The notes under the pieces were generated by a model. It made no database searches and was not told the DNA's origin. It was given only the letters and a program-made list of their open reading frames with translations. Shown one piece after another: positions 1-34,217 of a stretch of 38,209 nucleotides of DNA. The position numbers were made by a program, and so were the translations under genes. Position 1 is the first letter of the stretch. Each line of letters begins with the position of its first letter. The stretch is from a virus. Where the stretch lies: IMG/VR virus record IMGVR_UViG_3300021335_001906, positions 1 through 38,209 of that record. One strand, 5' to 3'.

Positions 1-1625
1 TTTATTATTATGTTTCAAAGGGTTGGTTTATGTACGCGTCACCTGTGCTCTCGAACGCTCCTATCGAGGGAGAGAAGGTTAAGGCGTTACCTATTTCGTG
101 TTTCCTTACATATGTCCCTGATTCGTTAGAAGGGCTAATTGATCATTCGGCTGAATTGAGATGGTTGTCCGTAAAAGGTGGTGGCGTTGGTGGTCACTGG
201 TCAGACGTACGTGCAGTATCAAAGAAGGCACCTGGCCCTATGCCATTCCTTCATACAGTTGACGCTGACATGGTCGCCTATCGCCAGGGCAAAACACGCA
301 AAGGTTCCTATGCTGCCTATATTGACATTGATCATCCTGATATTGTAGAGTTTTGTAATATGCGGATTCCAACTGGTGATGTCAACCGCAAAAATTTAAA
401 TCTACACCATGCCGTAAATATTACTGATGAGTTTATGGAAGCAGTAGAAAAAGATGCCGATTGGTATTTGGTTGATCCACACGACAAGTCTTCTCGTGAT
501 ACAATGAAGGCTCGTAAATTGTGGGAACTATTGCTTGAAACTCGTTATCGTACTGGTGAGCCGTATTTAAACTTTATTGATACAGCAAACCGAGCAATGC
601 CAGAAAGTCAGAAAAAACTTGGTCTTAAAATCCGTGGTTCAAATTTGTGTAATGAAATTCATTTGGCCACCAATGAAGATCGTACTGCTGTGTGCTGTTT
701 GTCGTCCGTAAATTTGGAAAAATATGACGAGTGGAAAGACACTACAATGATCGAGGACCTTATTGAATACCTTGATAATGTTCTTCAGTTCTTCATTGAC
801 CATGCTGGAGATGAAATCTCTCGTGCTCGTTATTCTGCTCAACAGGAACGTTCTCTTGGTCTTGGTGCTATGGGGTTCCATTCATATTTGCAACAGCATC
901 GGATTCCATTTGAGTCAGAAGAGGCCGAAAAAGTTAATGAAGATATCTTTAAAAACATTTATTTGCGAGCCTGTTCTTCGTCTCTGTCACTAGGTAAGAA
1001 AAAAGGTGAAGCACCTGATATGAAAGGCACTGGTCGTAGAAACGCACATATGTTGGCGATTGCACCAAATGCCAATTCCTCTATGATCGCTGGTACATCG
1101 CCTTCTATTGAGCCATGGAAGGCTAATGCATTTACCTCACGTACACGAGTCGGTTCCCACTTGAATAAAAATCCATATCTTGAAGAGGAACTAGAAAAGT
1201 TGGGTAAAAATACAGAAGCCATTTGGTCGTCTATTATTACCAATGGCGGATCGGTCCAACATTTGGAATTCCTATCAGATCATCTTAAGGCTGTATTTAA
1301 AACTGCTATTGAGTTGGATCAAATGTGGGTGGTTAAATTGGCTGGCAAGCGACAGAAATATCTGTGTCAAGGTCAGTCGTTAAATCTATTCTTCCCTGCT
1401 GGTGCTGATAAGGCATATCTGAACCGTGTACACTATGCGGCATGGAAGTATGGAACAAAAGGTCTATATTATTTGCGCACAGAAACATCAAACCGCGCCG
1501 AAAATGTGGCCGAAAAAGTAGAAAGAGAAAAACTAGATAATGTGGTAAATATTGATGCCAGCAAAGTGAGTTTTATTAACGGAAATGACGAGTCGCAGGA
1601 CGAATGTGTAGCCTGCCAAGGATAA
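1..1625 (+). CDS. nrdA: Ribonucleoside-diphosphate reductase alpha subunit, class Ia (5' end outside window)
   Basis: Catalytic subunit that reduces NDPs to dNDPs for phage DNA synthesis. The frame is open to the window edge (first whole codon at base 3), and the codons before the ATG at 30 read like conserved family sequence, so that ATG is internal and the N-terminal ATP-cone region is missing. Counted from the ATG at 30, the first redox cysteine is C24 (PISCFL), the active-site motif NLCNE has C207 and E209, the partner cysteine is C222 (AVCCLS), the radical-transfer Tyr pair is in GLYYLRT, and the C-terminal shuttle cysteines are CVAC. Compared with E. coli NrdA these match C225, C439, E441, C462, Y730/731 and C754/759. 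The gene sits 9 nt before nrdB and is surely co-transcribed. Confidence 0.96.
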   Translation, partial: YYYVSKGWFMYASPVLSNAPIEGEKVKALPISCFLTYVPDSLEGLIDHSAELRWLSVKGGGVGGHWSDVRAVSKKAPGPMPFLHTVDADMVAYRQGKTRKGSYAAYIDIDHPDIVEFCNMRIPTGDVNRKNLNLHHAVNITDEFMEAVEKDADWYLVDPHDKSSRDTMKARKLWELLLETRYRTGEPYLNFIDTANRAMPESQKKLGLKIRGSNLCNEIHLATNEDRTAVCCLSSVNLEKYDEWKDTTMIEDLIEYLDNVLQFFIDHAGDEISRARYSAQQERSLGLGAMGFHSYLQQHRIPFESEEAEKVNEDIFKNIYLRACSSSLSLGKKKGEAPDMKGTGRRNAHMLAIAPNANSSMIAGTSPSIEPWKANAFTSRTRVGSHLNKNPYLEEELEKLGKNTEAIWSSIITNGGSVQHLEFLSDHLKAVFKTAIELDQMWVVKLAGKRQKYLCQGQSLNLFFPAGADKAYLNRVHYAAWKYGTKGLYYLRTETSNRAENVAEKVEREKLDNVVNIDASKVSFINGNDESQDECVACQG

Positions 1626-1634
1626 GAGGAAAAG

Positions 1635-2846
1635 ATGGACGTACTAATTTATTCAAAATCAAATTGCCCGTTTTGCGAAAAGGCAAAAGCGTGGTTTACA
1701 CAACACGGAATTTTATTCACAGAGATCAAACTTGACAACGAGGAAGAACGTCTGGCATTCTATCAGAAAGTTCCTCATGCACGTTCGGTTCCGCAGATCT
1801 TTATTGATGATAAACTAATTGGAACATATAATGATCTGATGGCCAAAGCCGACACACTAATTAAAAAGAAAGGTGGTTTGCTAGAGTTCAGTGAAACATA
1901 TAAGCCTTTCCATTATCCGTGGGCTGTAGAGATGACTACCCGACACGAGAAAGCTCACTGGATTGAGGACGAAATTGACCTATCAGAAGATGTATCTGAT
2001 TGGAAGGGCGGCAAAATGTCAGATATGGAGAAGGAATATGTTACGAACATTCTCCGTCTCTTTACACAATCTGATGTTGCGGTCGGTCAAAACTACTTTG
2101 ATCAATTTATTCCTAAATTTAAAAACAATGAAGTCCGCAATATGCTAGGTTCCTTTGCCACTCGTGAAGGTATTCACCAACGTGCATATGCTCTATTGAA
2201 CGAGACACTTGGTTTGCCTGATTCCGAATATCATGCATTCCTTGAGTATCAGGAAATGGCTGATAAAATTGACTTTATGATGGACAGTGATGTAAATACA
2301 ATGCGCGGCCTAGCCCTTGCTCTTGCCAAATCGGTAATGAATGAAGGCATTGCGCTGTTTGCATCGTTTGTGATGCTGTTGAACTTCCAACGGTATGGTA
2401 AAATGAAAGGCATGGGTAAGGTCGTTGAGTGGTCGATTAGAGATGAATCAATGCATGTTGAAGGAATCTCTAAACTATTCAAGGCATTCTGTAAGGAACA
2501 CCCACGGATTGTTGACGATGAGTTTAAAAAAGAGATTTACGAAATGTCTCGCCTGGCAGTAAAACTAGAAGATAAGTTTACTGACCTAGCATATGAGATG
2601 GGCGACGTGGATGGTCTATCCAAAGATGAGGTAAAACAATATGTTCGGTACATTACTGATCGTCGTCTACTTCAACTTGGAATGAAACCAAACTTTAAGG
2701 TAAAGGATAATCCTCTACCATGGCTCGAGTGGGTACTGAATGGTGCTGATCATACCAATTTCTTTGAGAACCGTGTGACAGAATACGAAGTTGCTGGTTT
2801 GTCTGGTAAATGGGATGATGCTTACTCTAACATGCAAGTAGCTTAA
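1635..2846 (+). CDS. nrdB: Glutaredoxin-NrdB fusion: ribonucleotide reductase beta subunit
   Basis: Radical-generating subunit, 403 aa. Residues 1-75 form a glutaredoxin (CPFC at 11-14, SVPQIFI cis-Pro loop). Residues 90-403 form the ferritin-like NrdB. Metal ligands by comparison with E. coli are D115, E178, H181, E237, E271 and H274. The radical tyrosine position is kept as Y185 (EGIHQRAY, the same spacing as E115/H118/Y122), which points to an ordinary Tyr-radical enzyme rather than a Tyr-less type. The fused glutaredoxin probably re-reduces the NrdA C-terminal cysteines. Glutaredoxin-NrdB fusions are known (for example Facklamia) but uncommon. The SD is AGAGGAAA before ATG. The C-terminus ends SNMQVA, near the usual NrdA-binding tail. 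Confidence 0.96.
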   Translation: MDVLIYSKSNCPFCEKAKAWFTQHGILFTEIKLDNEEERLAFYQKVPHARSVPQIFIDDKLIGTYNDLMAKADTLIKKKGGLLEFSETYKPFHYPWAVEMTTRHEKAHWIEDEIDLSEDVSDWKGGKMSDMEKEYVTNILRLFTQSDVAVGQNYFDQFIPKFKNNEVRNMLGSFATREGIHQRAYALLNETLGLPDSEYHAFLEYQEMADKIDFMMDSDVNTMRGLALALAKSVMNEGIALFASFVMLLNFQRYGKMKGMGKVVEWSIRDESMHVEGISKLFKAFCKEHPRIVDDEFKKEIYEMSRLAVKLEDKFTDLAYEMGDVDGLSKDEVKQYVRYITDRRLLQLGMKPNFKVKDNPLPWLEWVLNGADHTNFFENRVTEYEVAGLSGKWDDAYSNMQVA

Positions 2847-2900: not shown

Positions 2901-3383
2901 ATGACACAACAAAATGAGTACGATGTCCATTTAATTAAAGTAGTTGACGGTGACACAGTTGACGTTGATATTGATCTAGGCTTTGGAATTCAATTAAAGG
3001 ATGAAAGAGTTCGGATTATGGGCATCGATACACCAGAGTCGAGAACATCCGATAGGGTGGAAAAATTATTTGGTATTGCAGCAAAAAATAGACTAAAAGA
3101 ATTGCTTGAAAAAGATGCCAAACTTATCACCACTGAGGATAAAGACGGTGAGGATATGAAGGGTAAATTTGGTCGTGTACTTGGTGACTTTCGTGCCGCT
3201 GATGGCAAATTGGTCACTGAAATTATGATCGCCGAGGGGCATTGTGTTCCTTATTTTGGTGGTTCAAAAGAGGAAGTTCAGGCAGCACATATGAAAAATC
3301 GTGAACGTCTTTTGGCTGAAGGTATTGTGGATCGTGCTGAATATGATAAAATGGTTATTGCTGAAGCAAACGAGAAAAAATAA
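2901..3383 (+). CDS. Staphylococcal nuclease-like (thermonuclease/SNase) protein
   Basis: 160 aa OB-fold nuclease, probably acting on DNA or RNA with Ca2+. Family motifs in order are VVDGDTVD (residues 14-21), RIMGIDTPESR (about 38-48), and KGKFGRVLGDF (about 87-97). These carry the Asp/Thr metal ligands and the Arg residues typical of the family. There is no signal peptide, so it should act in the cytoplasm, for example in host nucleic acid breakdown. The SD AGGGAG lies in the arm of the hairpin at 2853-2890, so translation from read-through mRNA is probably blocked. It lies 15 nt before hemA. Confidence 0.9.
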   Translation: MTQQNEYDVHLIKVVDGDTVDVDIDLGFGIQLKDERVRIMGIDTPESRTSDRVEKLFGIAAKNRLKELLEKDAKLITTEDKDGEDMKGKFGRVLGDFRAADGKLVTEIMIAEGHCVPYFGGSKEEVQAAHMKNRERLLAEGIVDRAEYDKMVIAEANEKK

Positions 3384-3398
3384 TAAGGCCAATTTAGA

Positions 3399-4601
3399 AT
3401 GATTAGTCATGCTCATTTTGAAAAACTTGTCGAAGATTTAAAATCAGATGGTAGATATAGGACCTTTAACGATATACTAAGAGAGCGTGGGGACTTCCCT
3501 CGCTCTATTTGGTATGGTCCATATGCTCCAAAACAAATTGTAAACTGGTGTTCTAATGATTACCTTGGTATGGGTCAAAATCAAATTGTGATTGATGCCA
3601 TGCATACAGCCTTGGACCAAACCGGATCAGGATCTGGTGGTACAAGGAATATTGGTGGAACATCACATTATCATGTAACACTTGAGCGTGAACTTGCCTC
3701 CTTACATAAAAAGGAATCAGCACTACTATTCACAAGTGCATATGTTGCAAATGAATGGGCACTCATTGCTCTCAGTAAAATAATTCCAAATATTATTTTC
3801 TTATCTGATGATAAAAACCATGCATCATTGATTATGGGTATGAAGCACAGTAGAGCACCCAAAATTATTTGGGAACATAATAATATGGATGAGCTTGAAA
3901 TTTCTTTGCAAACAGCCCAAATGTCAAATAAGCTACCTGTAATTATTTTTGAATCAGTCTATAGTATGGATGGTGATGTAGCACCAATCGAAAAAATATG
4001 TGATCTTGCTGATAAATATGGGGCAATGACCTACATTGATGAGGTTCATGCTGTTGGTCTCTATGGTGATACCGGTGCCGGTTATTGTGAGAAACTAGGA
4101 TTAGAATCAAGGATAGATATTATCAATGGGACGCTCGGAAAAGCATTTGGGGTCCAGGGTGGTTATATTGCTGGTGATAGTATTATTATTGATGCTATCA
4201 GGTCTGTCGCTAGTGGATTTATTTTCACGACATCAACCAGCCCCGTCATCTGTGCCGGAGCTCTCGCCTCAATCAGATATATCAGTGACCATCCTTCCCT
4301 CCATCGAGAGCATCAACAAAAAGCAGGGCTATTAAAAAAATTATTAGCCGAAGCCAACATTGAGGTGCATGAAAATGCATGTACTCATATTGTTCCGGTT
4401 ATGGTACGAGATGCCAAAAAATGTAAAAGAATGAGTGATCGCCTTCTTACGGAATTTGGCATATATATTCAACCGATAAACTATCCTACTGTTGAGGTAG
4501 GAGAAGAAAGGTTAAGAATAGCACCCACACCTTTACACACAGACACCATGATAATTGATCTAGTTGAGGCACTTAAGAAAGTATTTGAGGATGAAACCTG
4601 A
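3399..4601 (+). CDS. hemA: 5-aminolevulinate synthase (ALAS, Shemin pathway)
   Basis: PLP enzyme that condenses glycine and succinyl-CoA to 5-aminolevulinate, the first committed step of tetrapyrrole synthesis in alphaproteobacteria. 400 aa, the full family length. Conserved blocks: GRYRTFNDI (18-26), [11 protein letters not shown] (50-60), [15 protein letters not shown] (77-91), [10 protein letters not shown] (184-193), [13 protein letters not shown] (212-224), and the Schiff-base lysine K248 in NGTLGKAFG, the same number as in Rhodobacter capsulatus ALAS as I recall it. C-terminal block [12 protein letters not shown] is also alphaproteobacterial in style. All active-site motifs look intact. 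I see no Cys-Pro heme-regulatory motif. Related AONS/KBL enzymes are less likely because of the N-terminal GRYRTF block. ALAS genes have been reported in aquatic phage sequences. Confidence 0.95.
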
Positions 4602-4737
4602 AAGTCATTATTGGAATTGGTTTAAACAATTACGTTCTAAAGGTTATTCTTTTGTTTACAGCCTGCAGTGGGCGTGGTATAATAGTAAGAGATATAATCT
4701 GGACGGCACATATCTAAAGAATGGAAAAAGAACATGA
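4591..4737 (+). CDS. Small hypothetical protein, translationally coupled to hemA
   Basis: 48 aa, rich in Trp, Tyr and Lys (starts [10 protein letters not shown], ends KNGKRT). Its ATG overlaps the hemA stop by 11 nt, and its own stop overlaps the next start as ATGA (4734-4737), the usual phage coupling on both sides. GAGG sits directly before the ATG, too close to act as a normal SD, so re-initiation after hemA would be needed. No function recognised. It also contains a strong promoter-like sequence at 4655-4683. Confidence 0.5.
4655..4683 (+). promoter_or_regulatory. Sigma-70-like promoter for the DUF454 gene
   Basis: TTTACA (4655-4660), exactly 17 bp, then a perfect TATAAT (4678-4683). Transcription would start about 45 nt before the DUF454 gene. 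It lies inside the small ORF 4591-4737. Confidence 0.55.
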
Positions 4738-5153
4738 ATAAAATTAAAAAGGCAATATGGTTTACACTGGGAATCTTGTGTTTAGGGATAGCATACCTAG
4801 GTGTAATTTTGCCAGGTATCCCGTGGAGCACACCTATTCTAGGTGCAGCATTTTGTTTTGCAAAATCAAGTGAAAAGTTTCATAATTGGATTATGAATCA
4901 TAAATTATTCGGACCGTTTATTAAGGAATGGCAGCAATATAAAGTATATCCACAGAAAGGCAAATATATTATGATGGCAGTTATGTCAACATCATTGGCG
5001 TTTATGTGGTTCGGCACGGGCAACCCAATGGCTACATTATATCTGTTCATTCTATTTGCTTTAATTGTAATATGGGCATGGCGGTATCCAGGTTCAAAAG
5101 AGGAAGCACAGCGTCGTATTGATGCAGGAGAAAAGTTAGGATGGTTACGCTAG
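4734..5153 (+). CDS. YbaN/DUF454 family inner-membrane protein
   Basis: 139 aa. Residues 1-11 are basic, then a hydrophobic segment (12-30) leads into the family signature: G-V-x-LPGIPWSTPIL, AAFCFAKSSEKFHNWIMNH and LFGPFI-EW (about 24-66). Two further hydrophobic stretches follow (about 80-96 and 99-116), so about three membrane segments in all. This pattern fits E. coli YbaN and relatives, whose function is not established. The start overlaps the previous ORF by ATGA. Its position after hemA is suggestive but does not prove a role in tetrapyrrole biology. Confidence 0.85.
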   Translation: MNKIKKAIWFTLGILCLGIAYLGVILPGIPWSTPILGAAFCFAKSSEKFHNWIMNHKLFGPFIKEWQQYKVYPQKGKYIMMAVMSTSLAFMWFGTGNPMATLYLFILFALIVIWAWRYPGSKEEAQRRIDAGEKLGWLR

Positions 5154-25515: not shown

Positions 25516-26658
25516 ATGGACAGCAGAATTAGTGCAATTCTTGCACGAGAAGCAGACAGACAACACACAACAATTGAACTAATCGCAAGTGAAAATTTTG
25601 CAAGTGATGCTGTCATGGATTTAGCAGGAAGTTGTTTTACAAACAAATATGCCGAAGGTTATCCTGGAAAACGATATTATAATGGCTGTATGCATATGGA
25701 CGAGATTGAACGGTTGGCGATTGACCAGCTGAAGGAAATCTATGACGTAAAATTTGCAAACGTACAGCCACACTCTGGTGCAAATGCCAATGTTGCTGTA
25801 TTTCAAGCCTTTTTAAAGCCAGGAGATAAAATCCTCGGTATGGATCTAGCATCTGGCGGCCACCTATCTCACGGTGCTCCAGTAAATATTTCTGGTAAAA
25901 ACTACGAAGCACATCATTATGGTGTTGATGATGCTGGTTGGTTGGACTATGATGCAATAATGCGGCAAGCAGCAGAAGTTAACCCGGCAATGATTATTGC
26001 TGGTGCTTCCGCATATCCTCGGCAGATTGATTGGGAAGCGTTCCGTGTTATTGCAGACCAGGTTGGTGCTCTACTGATGGTTGATATGGCTCATTATTCA
26101 GGGCTGATTGCTGGTGGAGTTTATGATAATCCTTGTGATTATGCAGATATCGTAACCAGTACGACTCATAAAACGCTACGAGGGCCTCGTGGTGGTATTA
26201 TTCTTTGGAACGATGATGCCTTTACCAAAAAGATTAATAGTGCTGTTTTCCCAGGAACTCAAGGCGGTCCACTAATGAATATCATTGCCGCAAAGGCTCA
26301 ATGTTTTATTGAAGCAAACACACCTGAGTTTAAAGAATATGCGGCTCAAGTCGTACGTAATGCAAAGGCAATGTGTGACACCCTACGTCAACGTGAATTG
26401 ACGGTACAGACTGGTGGAACTGATAGTCATATCATTCTGATTGATCTAAAGGACAGTAGACATAGTGGTCGTGAAGCAGCAGATCTTCTTGAAACTGTTG
26501 GTGATATTACAGTAAATAAAAATGGTATTCCTAACGATCCTAGATCATTTATGGAAACAAGTGGCATCCGAATTGGAACTGCTGCGGAGACAACTCGAGG
26601 CCACGACGAAATGTGGTTCCGTCAACTAGCCCATAAAATTGCAGATATTCTGGAGTAA
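25516..26658 (+). CDS. glyA: Serine hydroxymethyltransferase
   Basis: 380 aa PLP enzyme converting serine + THF to glycine + 5,10-methylene-THF, the one-carbon donor for thymidylate. Motifs: IASENFAS (23-30), YAEGYPGKRYYNGC (45-58), VQPHSGANAN (83-92), MVDMAHYSGLIAGG, and the PLP lysine K219 in STTHKTLRGPRGG. C-terminal SGIRIGTAAETTRG is the substrate carboxylate-binding Arg block. Slightly shorter than E. coli GlyA (417 aa), mainly at the C-terminus. Active-site residues look intact. Phage SHMT is rare but fits thymidylate supply, and its product glycine feeds the ALAS of this phage. Confidence 0.95.
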   Translation: MDSRISAILAREADRQHTTIELIASENFASDAVMDLAGSCFTNKYAEGYPGKRYYNGCMHMDEIERLAIDQLKEIYDVKFANVQPHSGANANVAVFQAFLKPGDKILGMDLASGGHLSHGAPVNISGKNYEAHHYGVDDAGWLDYDAIMRQAAEVNPAMIIAGASAYPRQIDWEAFRVIADQVGALLMVDMAHYSGLIAGGVYDNPCDYADIVTSTTHKTLRGPRGGIILWNDDAFTKKINSAVFPGTQGGPLMNIIAAKAQCFIEANTPEFKEYAAQVVRNAKAMCDTLRQRELTVQTGGTDSHIILIDLKDSRHSGREAADLLETVGDITVNKNGIPNDPRSFMETSGIRIGTAAETTRGHDEMWFRQLAHKIADILE

Positions 26659-32885: not shown

Positions 32886-34217
32886 TCAGAACAAGTTTGC
32901 CACACGTACACGACGGTAGTACTTGTTAGCATTAGCTGTAAGAGCACCAAGACCTTGTGAATCCTGAACTGCGCCTTCCGCGAATGGGTTTGCAACCATA
33001 CCGTAGCGAGTTTTGAACCCGATTTTTGGCTGGAAGCTGTTCTCACCGATGGCACGGACCATCTGTAGAGGAACGTATGGGCAGTAGAACAAGCCTGCAT
33101 CAAATGCAGATGAACCTTTGTAACCAACAACCATGTAGTTTGAACCAGCATATGGGTCAATGTATACACGATAGCGGCCGTTAAGAACACCAGCAAATGT
33201 GTTGCCTGTGTCATCAACTTCCAAAGAGTTACCGTTAAGAGCAGGTGCATAGTCAAGTACACCAGCCATTTGAAGAGCAGAAGCTACATCTGAAGAACAG
33301 ATAACCATGTTACCTTTTCCACGTCTTGTGTCTTTTGCGATTTGGTTAGCTTCTTGTTCAATTTGGAACATAAGTCCTTTGAACTTCTCAACAGACCAAC
33401 GGCCGTTAGCATCCACATCCAAGTCAAAGATGCCTGCGTTAGCAGTGTTTGTAGCACCAGCAGAAGCAGTGTTGTAAATTGTACGAACAACTTCACGGTT
33501 GATCTCAGTCAGGATTTCAGACTGAAGGATGTTCGCCAACTCAGATTCTGCATCCAAGCCATGAACTGCCTTAAGGTCCTGAGCAAGTTCAGTTGTGTAT
33601 TCTGCTTTCAACGCACGTGACTTAGCAGCAACAGTAACCTTCTCGATTGAGAATGCCATTTCTGCATAGTTTGTACCGTTACCGTCGCCTAGAGCTTCAG
33701 CCGCAGCAGTTGCCATACCTGCACCTGAGTCAAACAGTGAAGTATTACCTGTACCTGCGCCACCAGTTGAACCAACCTGTGCACCTGTACCTGCGTGAGT
33801 TGTATCTGCCTCACCATAGAATGCCTCGTTACCCGCTTGAGTGTCATAGCGTGAACGCATTGCAAAGATAAGACCTGTTGGGCCAGTCATTGGCTGAACA
33901 CCACAGATATCATATGCAATCAAGTTTGGCATAGAACGGCGAACAAGTGAGATCAATACTGGGTCATAACCAGCAGTTGGTCCACCTGGAGCAGATGCCG
34001 AACCAAAACCACCTGTACCAGCATCGTTGGTAGGTGCCTCAGTAAGCATGCTCATGTTAGCAGAAAGATCACCAGATTCCTGTAGGGCTTTTTCTGTGTT
34101 CTCCAGAATTGTAGCCGTTACGGACTTACGGTGAGAGTCCTGAATAGGTGAAAAAGATTCGTGCTCAAGGATTGGCCCCCACTTTTCCACAAGCTTTTGA
34201 TAGTTTGTCTCTGACAT
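32886..34217 (-). CDS. 23: Major capsid protein, gp23-like
   Basis: 443 aa, HK97-fold major capsid protein of T4-like type. Opening LVEKWGPILEHESFSPIQDSHRKS is given here in parts; ILENTEKAL, LISLVRRSMPNLIAYDICGVQPMTGPTGLIFAMRSRY and the C-terminal IDPYAGSNYMVVGYKGSSAFDAGLFYCPYVPLQ are classic gp23 blocks. LTE-A at residues 58-61 fits the gp21 protease site (L/I-x-E), predicted to release a 60-residue propeptide as in T4 (E65). SD AAGGAG and exact TATAAATA upstream. It lacks the insertion domain length of T4 gp23 (521 aa). Confidence 0.97.
   Translation of the reverse strand: MSETNYQKLVEKWGPILEHESFSPIQDSHRKSVTATILENTEKALQESGDLSANMSMLTEAPTNDAGTGGFGSASAPGGPTAGYDPVLISLVRRSMPNLIAYDICGVQPMTGPTGLIFAMRSRYDTQAGNEAFYGEADTTHAGTGAQVGSTGGAGTGNTSLFDSGAGMATAAAEALGDGNGTNYAEMAFSIEKVTVAAKSRALKAEYTTELAQDLKAVHGLDAESELANILQSEILTEINREVVRTIYNTASAGATNTANAGIFDLDVDANGRWSVEKFKGLMFQIEQEANQIAKDTRRGKGNMVICSSDVASALQMAGVLDYAPALNGNSLEVDDTGNTFAGVLNGRYRVYIDPYAGSNYMVVGYKGSSAFDAGLFYCPYVPLQMVRAIGENSFQPKIGFKTRYGMVANPFAEGAVQDSQGLGALTANANKYYRRVRVANLF

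Follow-up and report, generated by a model that had tools for sequence, protein, structure and literature searches.

Phage-encoded 5-aminolevulinate synthases (AlaS or vAlaS, here ALAS) have been described in marine and freshwater phages, in which they are sometimes accompanied by hemO and pcyA/X, and the activity of one homologous phage AlaS, CB_2, was shown by complementation (Wegner et al., 2024, PMC11480375). The statement in the original prediction that phage ALAS genes were already known thus agrees with the report on aquatic phages. A phage serine hydroxymethyltransferase (SHMT) has been annotated in phage 44RR2.8t since 2006 (PMC1524935). In bacteria, DUF454 and haem oxygenase genes are both common near the genes of T11SS, the known cargo of which includes haemophores (PMC12282271), and iron restriction raises a DUF454 gene in Avibacterium (PMC7970244).

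We analyzed a 38,209-base contig fragment from a phage of water bacteria (IMG/VR record IMGVR_UViG_3300021335_001906), referred to as the window, and judged the gene content within this fragment only. The original prediction had combined its ALAS with a distant SHMT into a two-step module producing 5-aminolevulinate (ALA) from serine, with the caveat that SHMT may also serve thymidylate.

ALAS in a T4-like phage fragment

The features considered here are the following.

30..1625, + strand: NrdA, ribonucleotide reductase alpha (NF006577, profile positions 75-604 of 604), context
1635..2846, + strand: glutaredoxin-NrdB fusion, ribonucleotide reductase beta (NF009398, 675 bits against a cut-off of 649), context
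2901..3383, + strand: thermonuclease-like nuclease (phrog_452, E 9e-29), context
3399..4601, + strand: 5-aminolevulinate synthase, vAlaS/HemA type, 400 residues, ATG start, intact (TIGR01821)
4734..5153, + strand: DUF454/YbaN membrane protein, 139 residues (PF04304, 104.5 bits against a cut-off of 35.1)
25516..26658, + strand: serine hydroxymethyltransferase (GlyA), 380 residues, ATG start, intact (NF000586)
32886..34217, - strand: T4-like major capsid protein gp23 (phrog_138, E 1.2e-165), lineage marker

The gp23 match to phrog_138 (E 1.2e-165) assigns the window to the T4-like phages, as originally proposed. Nucleotide genes are abundant, including nrdA, glutaredoxin-nrdB, and a 5'-deoxynucleotidase gene. 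The left contig end cuts off the N-terminus of NrdA (about 75 residues), and the glutaredoxin is fused at the N-terminus of NrdB. Among relatives, the whole ribonucleotide reductase type is swapped with the position of ALAS unchanged. Elsewhere in the window, the product of 10396-11130 matches eukaryotic-type phosphomannomutase (PF03332), in a stretch that also contains epimerase and glycosyltransferase-like genes.

The reading frame at 3399-4601 is uninterrupted from end to end, and its product scores 559.9 bits against TIGR01821, far above the curated equivalog cut-off of 338.55. The product shares 51% identity over 385 positions with the AlaS of R. capsulatus (PDB 2bwn), and all 14 checked residues of the catalytic and substrate sites, mapped onto this structure, are identical (R21, N54, T83, N85, I86, S137, H142, S189, D214, H217, T245, K248, T365, and R374), K248 being the conserved PLP lysine. 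The same residues show no variation across 103 distinct phage sequences, namely the window ALAS and 102 relatives. The other alpha-oxoamine synthases, KBL, BioF, and SPT, have the fold family in common with ALAS, and the reading frame gives secondary matches to NF005394 and TIGR00858, as would be expected if it encoded one of them. However, its scores stay below the rival cut-offs for KBL (320 against 460), BioF (314 against 426), and likewise SPT; the residues believed to recognize the succinyl group (R21, T83, N85, I86, and T365) are intact, and the sequence clusters with bacterial ALAS. The HMM cut-offs and the residues rule out these identities, to which we would give a minute chance at most. 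Judged by its sequence, the reading frame is confirmed as a genuine 5-aminolevulinate synthase, presumably active in the window phage, and the original description of a full-length ALAS with its PLP site and K248 was accurate. The genes are under purifying selection, the median pairwise dN/dS being 0.12 for ALAS and 0.14 for SHMT among phage relatives, and 0.11 for DUF454. Full-length homology together with the ALAS and SHMT medians excludes chance for these two genes.

Relatives of the window ALAS are encoded on at least 188 IMG/VR contigs. Phage ALAS form one clade (support 100/99), which includes the window sequence and adjoins the alphaproteobacterial ALAS in the tree; the nearest sampled relative of the window ALAS is L002 (81%). 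The window ALAS adds one phage AlaS to the published vAlaS group, and the kind of enzyme is already known. A contig from a "Rhodobacteraceae" MAG (L195, FZLS01000039.1) also carries an ALAS (74% identity) inside the phage clade, at zero branch length from the phage locus L017 over the aligned ALAS, with neighboring genes common to phage loci. Because of its position in the phage clade and its phage neighbors, this contig looks like phage DNA binned with a bacterium. Matches to ALAS in INPHARED had less than 36% identity, and most of them seem to be transduced genes or bacterial contamination; OR847847.1, OR844998.1, and several other INPHARED "phage" records, which hold KBL, BioF, or SHMT genes on contigs that are small or unannotated, likewise resemble bacterial contamination. 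A NifU_N/IscU-like iron-sulfur scaffold gene (L007:16558-17001) lies a few kb from ALAS in one phage locus, and 18 of 80 such loci contain the gene cluster to which it belongs.

SHMT and the supply of glycine

The SHMT reading frame, located about 21 kb from ALAS, is open throughout. Its product is a full-length family match to NF000586 (558.4 bits against a cut-off of 335) with the PLP-lysine motif STTHKTLRGPRGG, THKTLRGPRGG being present in the sequence, which supports the original call of an intact SHMT at 25516-26658. Relatives of this SHMT reside on phage contigs both with and without ALAS.

The presence of intact ALAS and SHMT genes in one genome could mean that SHMT is kept to feed glycine to ALAS in a dedicated Ser-to-ALA module. 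In line with such a role, one subclade (L005, L007, L033, L039, L040, L048, L053, L058, L059, L108, and L109) carries SHMT on the ALAS strand, only about 4 kb downstream of ALAS; the cluster there also contains nrdA/nrdB, and thyX is found just upstream at most of these loci. The original prediction depended on SHMT being enriched in phages with ALAS. In a set of closer relatives, 12 of 34 ALAS records of at least 30 kb carry SHMT. When records were limited to those of 50 kb or more, SHMT was present in just 4 of the 23 that had been retrieved by their ALAS, or that had been retrieved by DUF454 and also carry ALAS, compared with 0 of 12 ALAS-less T4-like records, and enrichment was not supported (p = 0.28, where the counts are of contigs sharing ancestry and p-values here and below are guides only). 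Starting from SHMT, we found ALAS in 1 of 14 large records fetched through SHMT and in 2 of 64 SHMT loci with at least 8 kb of total flank. SHMT and ALAS share a lineage, and SHMT is far from ALAS-specific, because 19 T4-like Aeromonas isolates carry SHMT and no ALAS. Considering also the distance between the two genes in the window and the co-occurrence of SHMT with thymidylate synthase described below, we regard a dedicated module as quite improbable, and the co-occurrence tests led us to reject SHMT as a dedicated glycine supplier. What stands of the original interpretation is that a single T4-like genome encodes both a conserved ALAS and an intact SHMT; the module itself is not supported.

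Thymidylate synthase of the ThyX or ThyA family was detected in 14 of 18 SHMT records versus 9 of 31 others (p = 0.0013), giving weight to the original caveat on thymidylate. Within ALAS records, it was present in 5/5 with SHMT versus 8/19 without (p = 0.04), and 4 of the 18 large SHMT records had no detected thymidylate synthase. Neither thyX nor thyA was recognized in the window, and the thymidylate link rests on relatives. In L002, ThyX is encoded about 5 kb upstream of ALAS, a location that in the window would fall slightly past the left end, and it is found near this position in most of the close ALAS loci read. By analogy, thyX probably lies just past the left contig end of the window. 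According to a rough estimate, producing a burst of large phage genomes would take millions of thymidine molecules per cell, more than any plausible need for ALA, which makes glycine supply an unlikely reason for SHMT retention. SHMT is better explained by the needs of DNA building than by the supply of ALAS.

DUF454 as the neighbor of ALAS

The gene directly downstream of ALAS, after a gap of 132 bp, encodes a DUF454/YbaN membrane protein with a full PF04304 domain match above the gathering score. Searches with tblastn located DUF454 at 73 of 80 close ALAS loci, at offsets from -0.9 to +3.5 kb from ALAS, and the other seven contigs stop no more than about 1 kb from ALAS. The more distant freshwater ALAS loci contain DUF454 in 21 of 25 cases, directly 3' of ALAS in 18, at a distance of about 7 kb and on the opposite strand in two, and cut at the contig end in one, the remaining four being without it. 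Among records not fetched through DUF454, 17/18 with ALAS carry DUF454, versus 2/25 ALAS-less records (p = 7e-9). Bacterial ALAS loci (79, with flanks of up to 8 kb) had no DUF454 nearby; the gene occurs elsewhere in the genome in all four tested bacterial ALAS genomes. DUF454 proteins are distributed from E. coli to alphaproteobacteria. DUF454, not SHMT, is the gene that stays with ALAS across phages, and this adjacency has apparently passed without comment in the literature consulted.

Since all phage ALAS come from one clade, part of the ALAS-DUF454 linkage may be inertia. At the extreme, a single ancestral acquisition, passed on by descent, would be the whole reason why the two genes are neighbors, and they would be functionally unrelated. 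The single phage ALAS clade would fit this explanation, as would the frequent occurrence of DUF454 in ALAS-less phages (among the 79 nearest DUF454 loci in phages, 20 have no ALAS nearby). However, the pair is kept while the ribonucleotide reductase type and the flanking genes change, and it is seen in both gene orders. A 4-bp ATGA overlap of ALAS and DUF454 is possible in 44 locus entries, some of which overlap on the same contig, and such overlaps occur in both orders, including three locus entries with DUF454 first. The linkage also extends to the deepest phage ALAS branch. We consider inheritance by itself an unlikely explanation.

The AlphaFold model of DUF454 is all-helical (pLDDT of 87.5, pTM of 0.62), and a fold search in the PDB returned no match (best E 1.1). 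No heme family dominates among the bacterial DUF454 neighbors in the sampled genomes, HemN_C being found in 4 of 89 neighbor proteins. As a guess, DUF454 might act at the membrane in the handling of ALA, porphyrin, or heme. We tentatively put forward that ALAS and DUF454 could constitute a co-translated two-gene tetrapyrrole module moving between T4-like phage backgrounds, a possibility that we rate slightly below even; if true, it would make DUF454 a membrane protein for such handling.

Taken together, we think it likely that ALAS serves host tetrapyrroles with DUF454 as a co-expressed partner, and that SHMT serves mainly one-carbon metabolism. During infection, the phage would produce a predicted active ALA synthase, condensing succinyl-CoA and glycine of the host into ALA. 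Most likely, phage ALAS would thereby enhance the committed step in tetrapyrrole synthesis and leave the rest of the pathway, to heme, to host enzymes; in some phages, a phage heme oxygenase could then act on the heme. DUF454 would be co-expressed with ALAS as a small membrane partner; we infer both this role and the direction of flux. SHMT would mainly supply methylene-tetrahydrofolate, i.e., one-carbon units, for thymidylate synthesis, with glycine as a by-product that may help ALAS without being the reason for the retention of the gene. The neighbor to study is accordingly DUF454, a widespread uncharacterized membrane protein, rather than SHMT. The phage cassette provides a direct genetic means of studying what DUF454 does and how phages move tetrapyrrole precursors. 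The locus also cautions that a common metabolite of two genes is insufficient to infer a pathway.

Comparison with known systems

The window ALAS resembles the published vAlaS (PMC11480375) in belonging to the same enzyme family in a T4-like/myovirus setting, in the conserved PLP lysine and active site, in having alphaproteobacterial closest relatives, and in the absence of both H342 of the R. capsulatus enzyme and a C-terminal Cys equivalent to C400. Unlike the vAlaS genes accompanied by hemO and pcyA/X, a cassette limited to a subset of vAlaS phages, the window ALAS has no recognized hemO or pcyA/X in the 38-kb fragment, and its DUF454 neighbor and SHMT have no counterpart in the main text of Wegner et al. 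(2024), where neither is mentioned. The contig of the nearest relative (G001) contains hemO, and heme oxygenase was found in 19 of 50 ALAS phage records. Among records of at least 60 kb, hemO is present in 15/20 with ALAS versus 7/22 others (p = 0.007), and over all records in 19/50 versus 8/31 (p = 0.33), so that the enrichment of hemO in ALAS phages is suggestive only.

In comparison with R. capsulatus AlaS (PDB 2bwn/2bwo/2bwp), with which it shares the sequence identity and the 14 active-site residues given above, the window ALAS has K in place of H342, and its C-terminal region is without Cys. The His at this position is absent from 103/103 phage ALAS and also from 61/79 bacterial ALAS, being present in only 18/79. 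We rejected lost heme feedback as a signature of phage ALAS, as this absence discriminates little between phage and bacterial enzymes.

The SHMT of T4-like Aeromonas phages (44RRORF008c, phage 31) are 51-55% identical over the full length to the window SHMT and likewise reside in T4-like genomes; in contrast to the window, those phages lack ALAS. The DUF454 product of the window is a full PF04304 domain match (104.5 bits) like other DUF454/YbaN proteins, and it differs from those of the bacteria with the 79 ALAS loci in that its gene stands beside ALAS, as it does in other phages.
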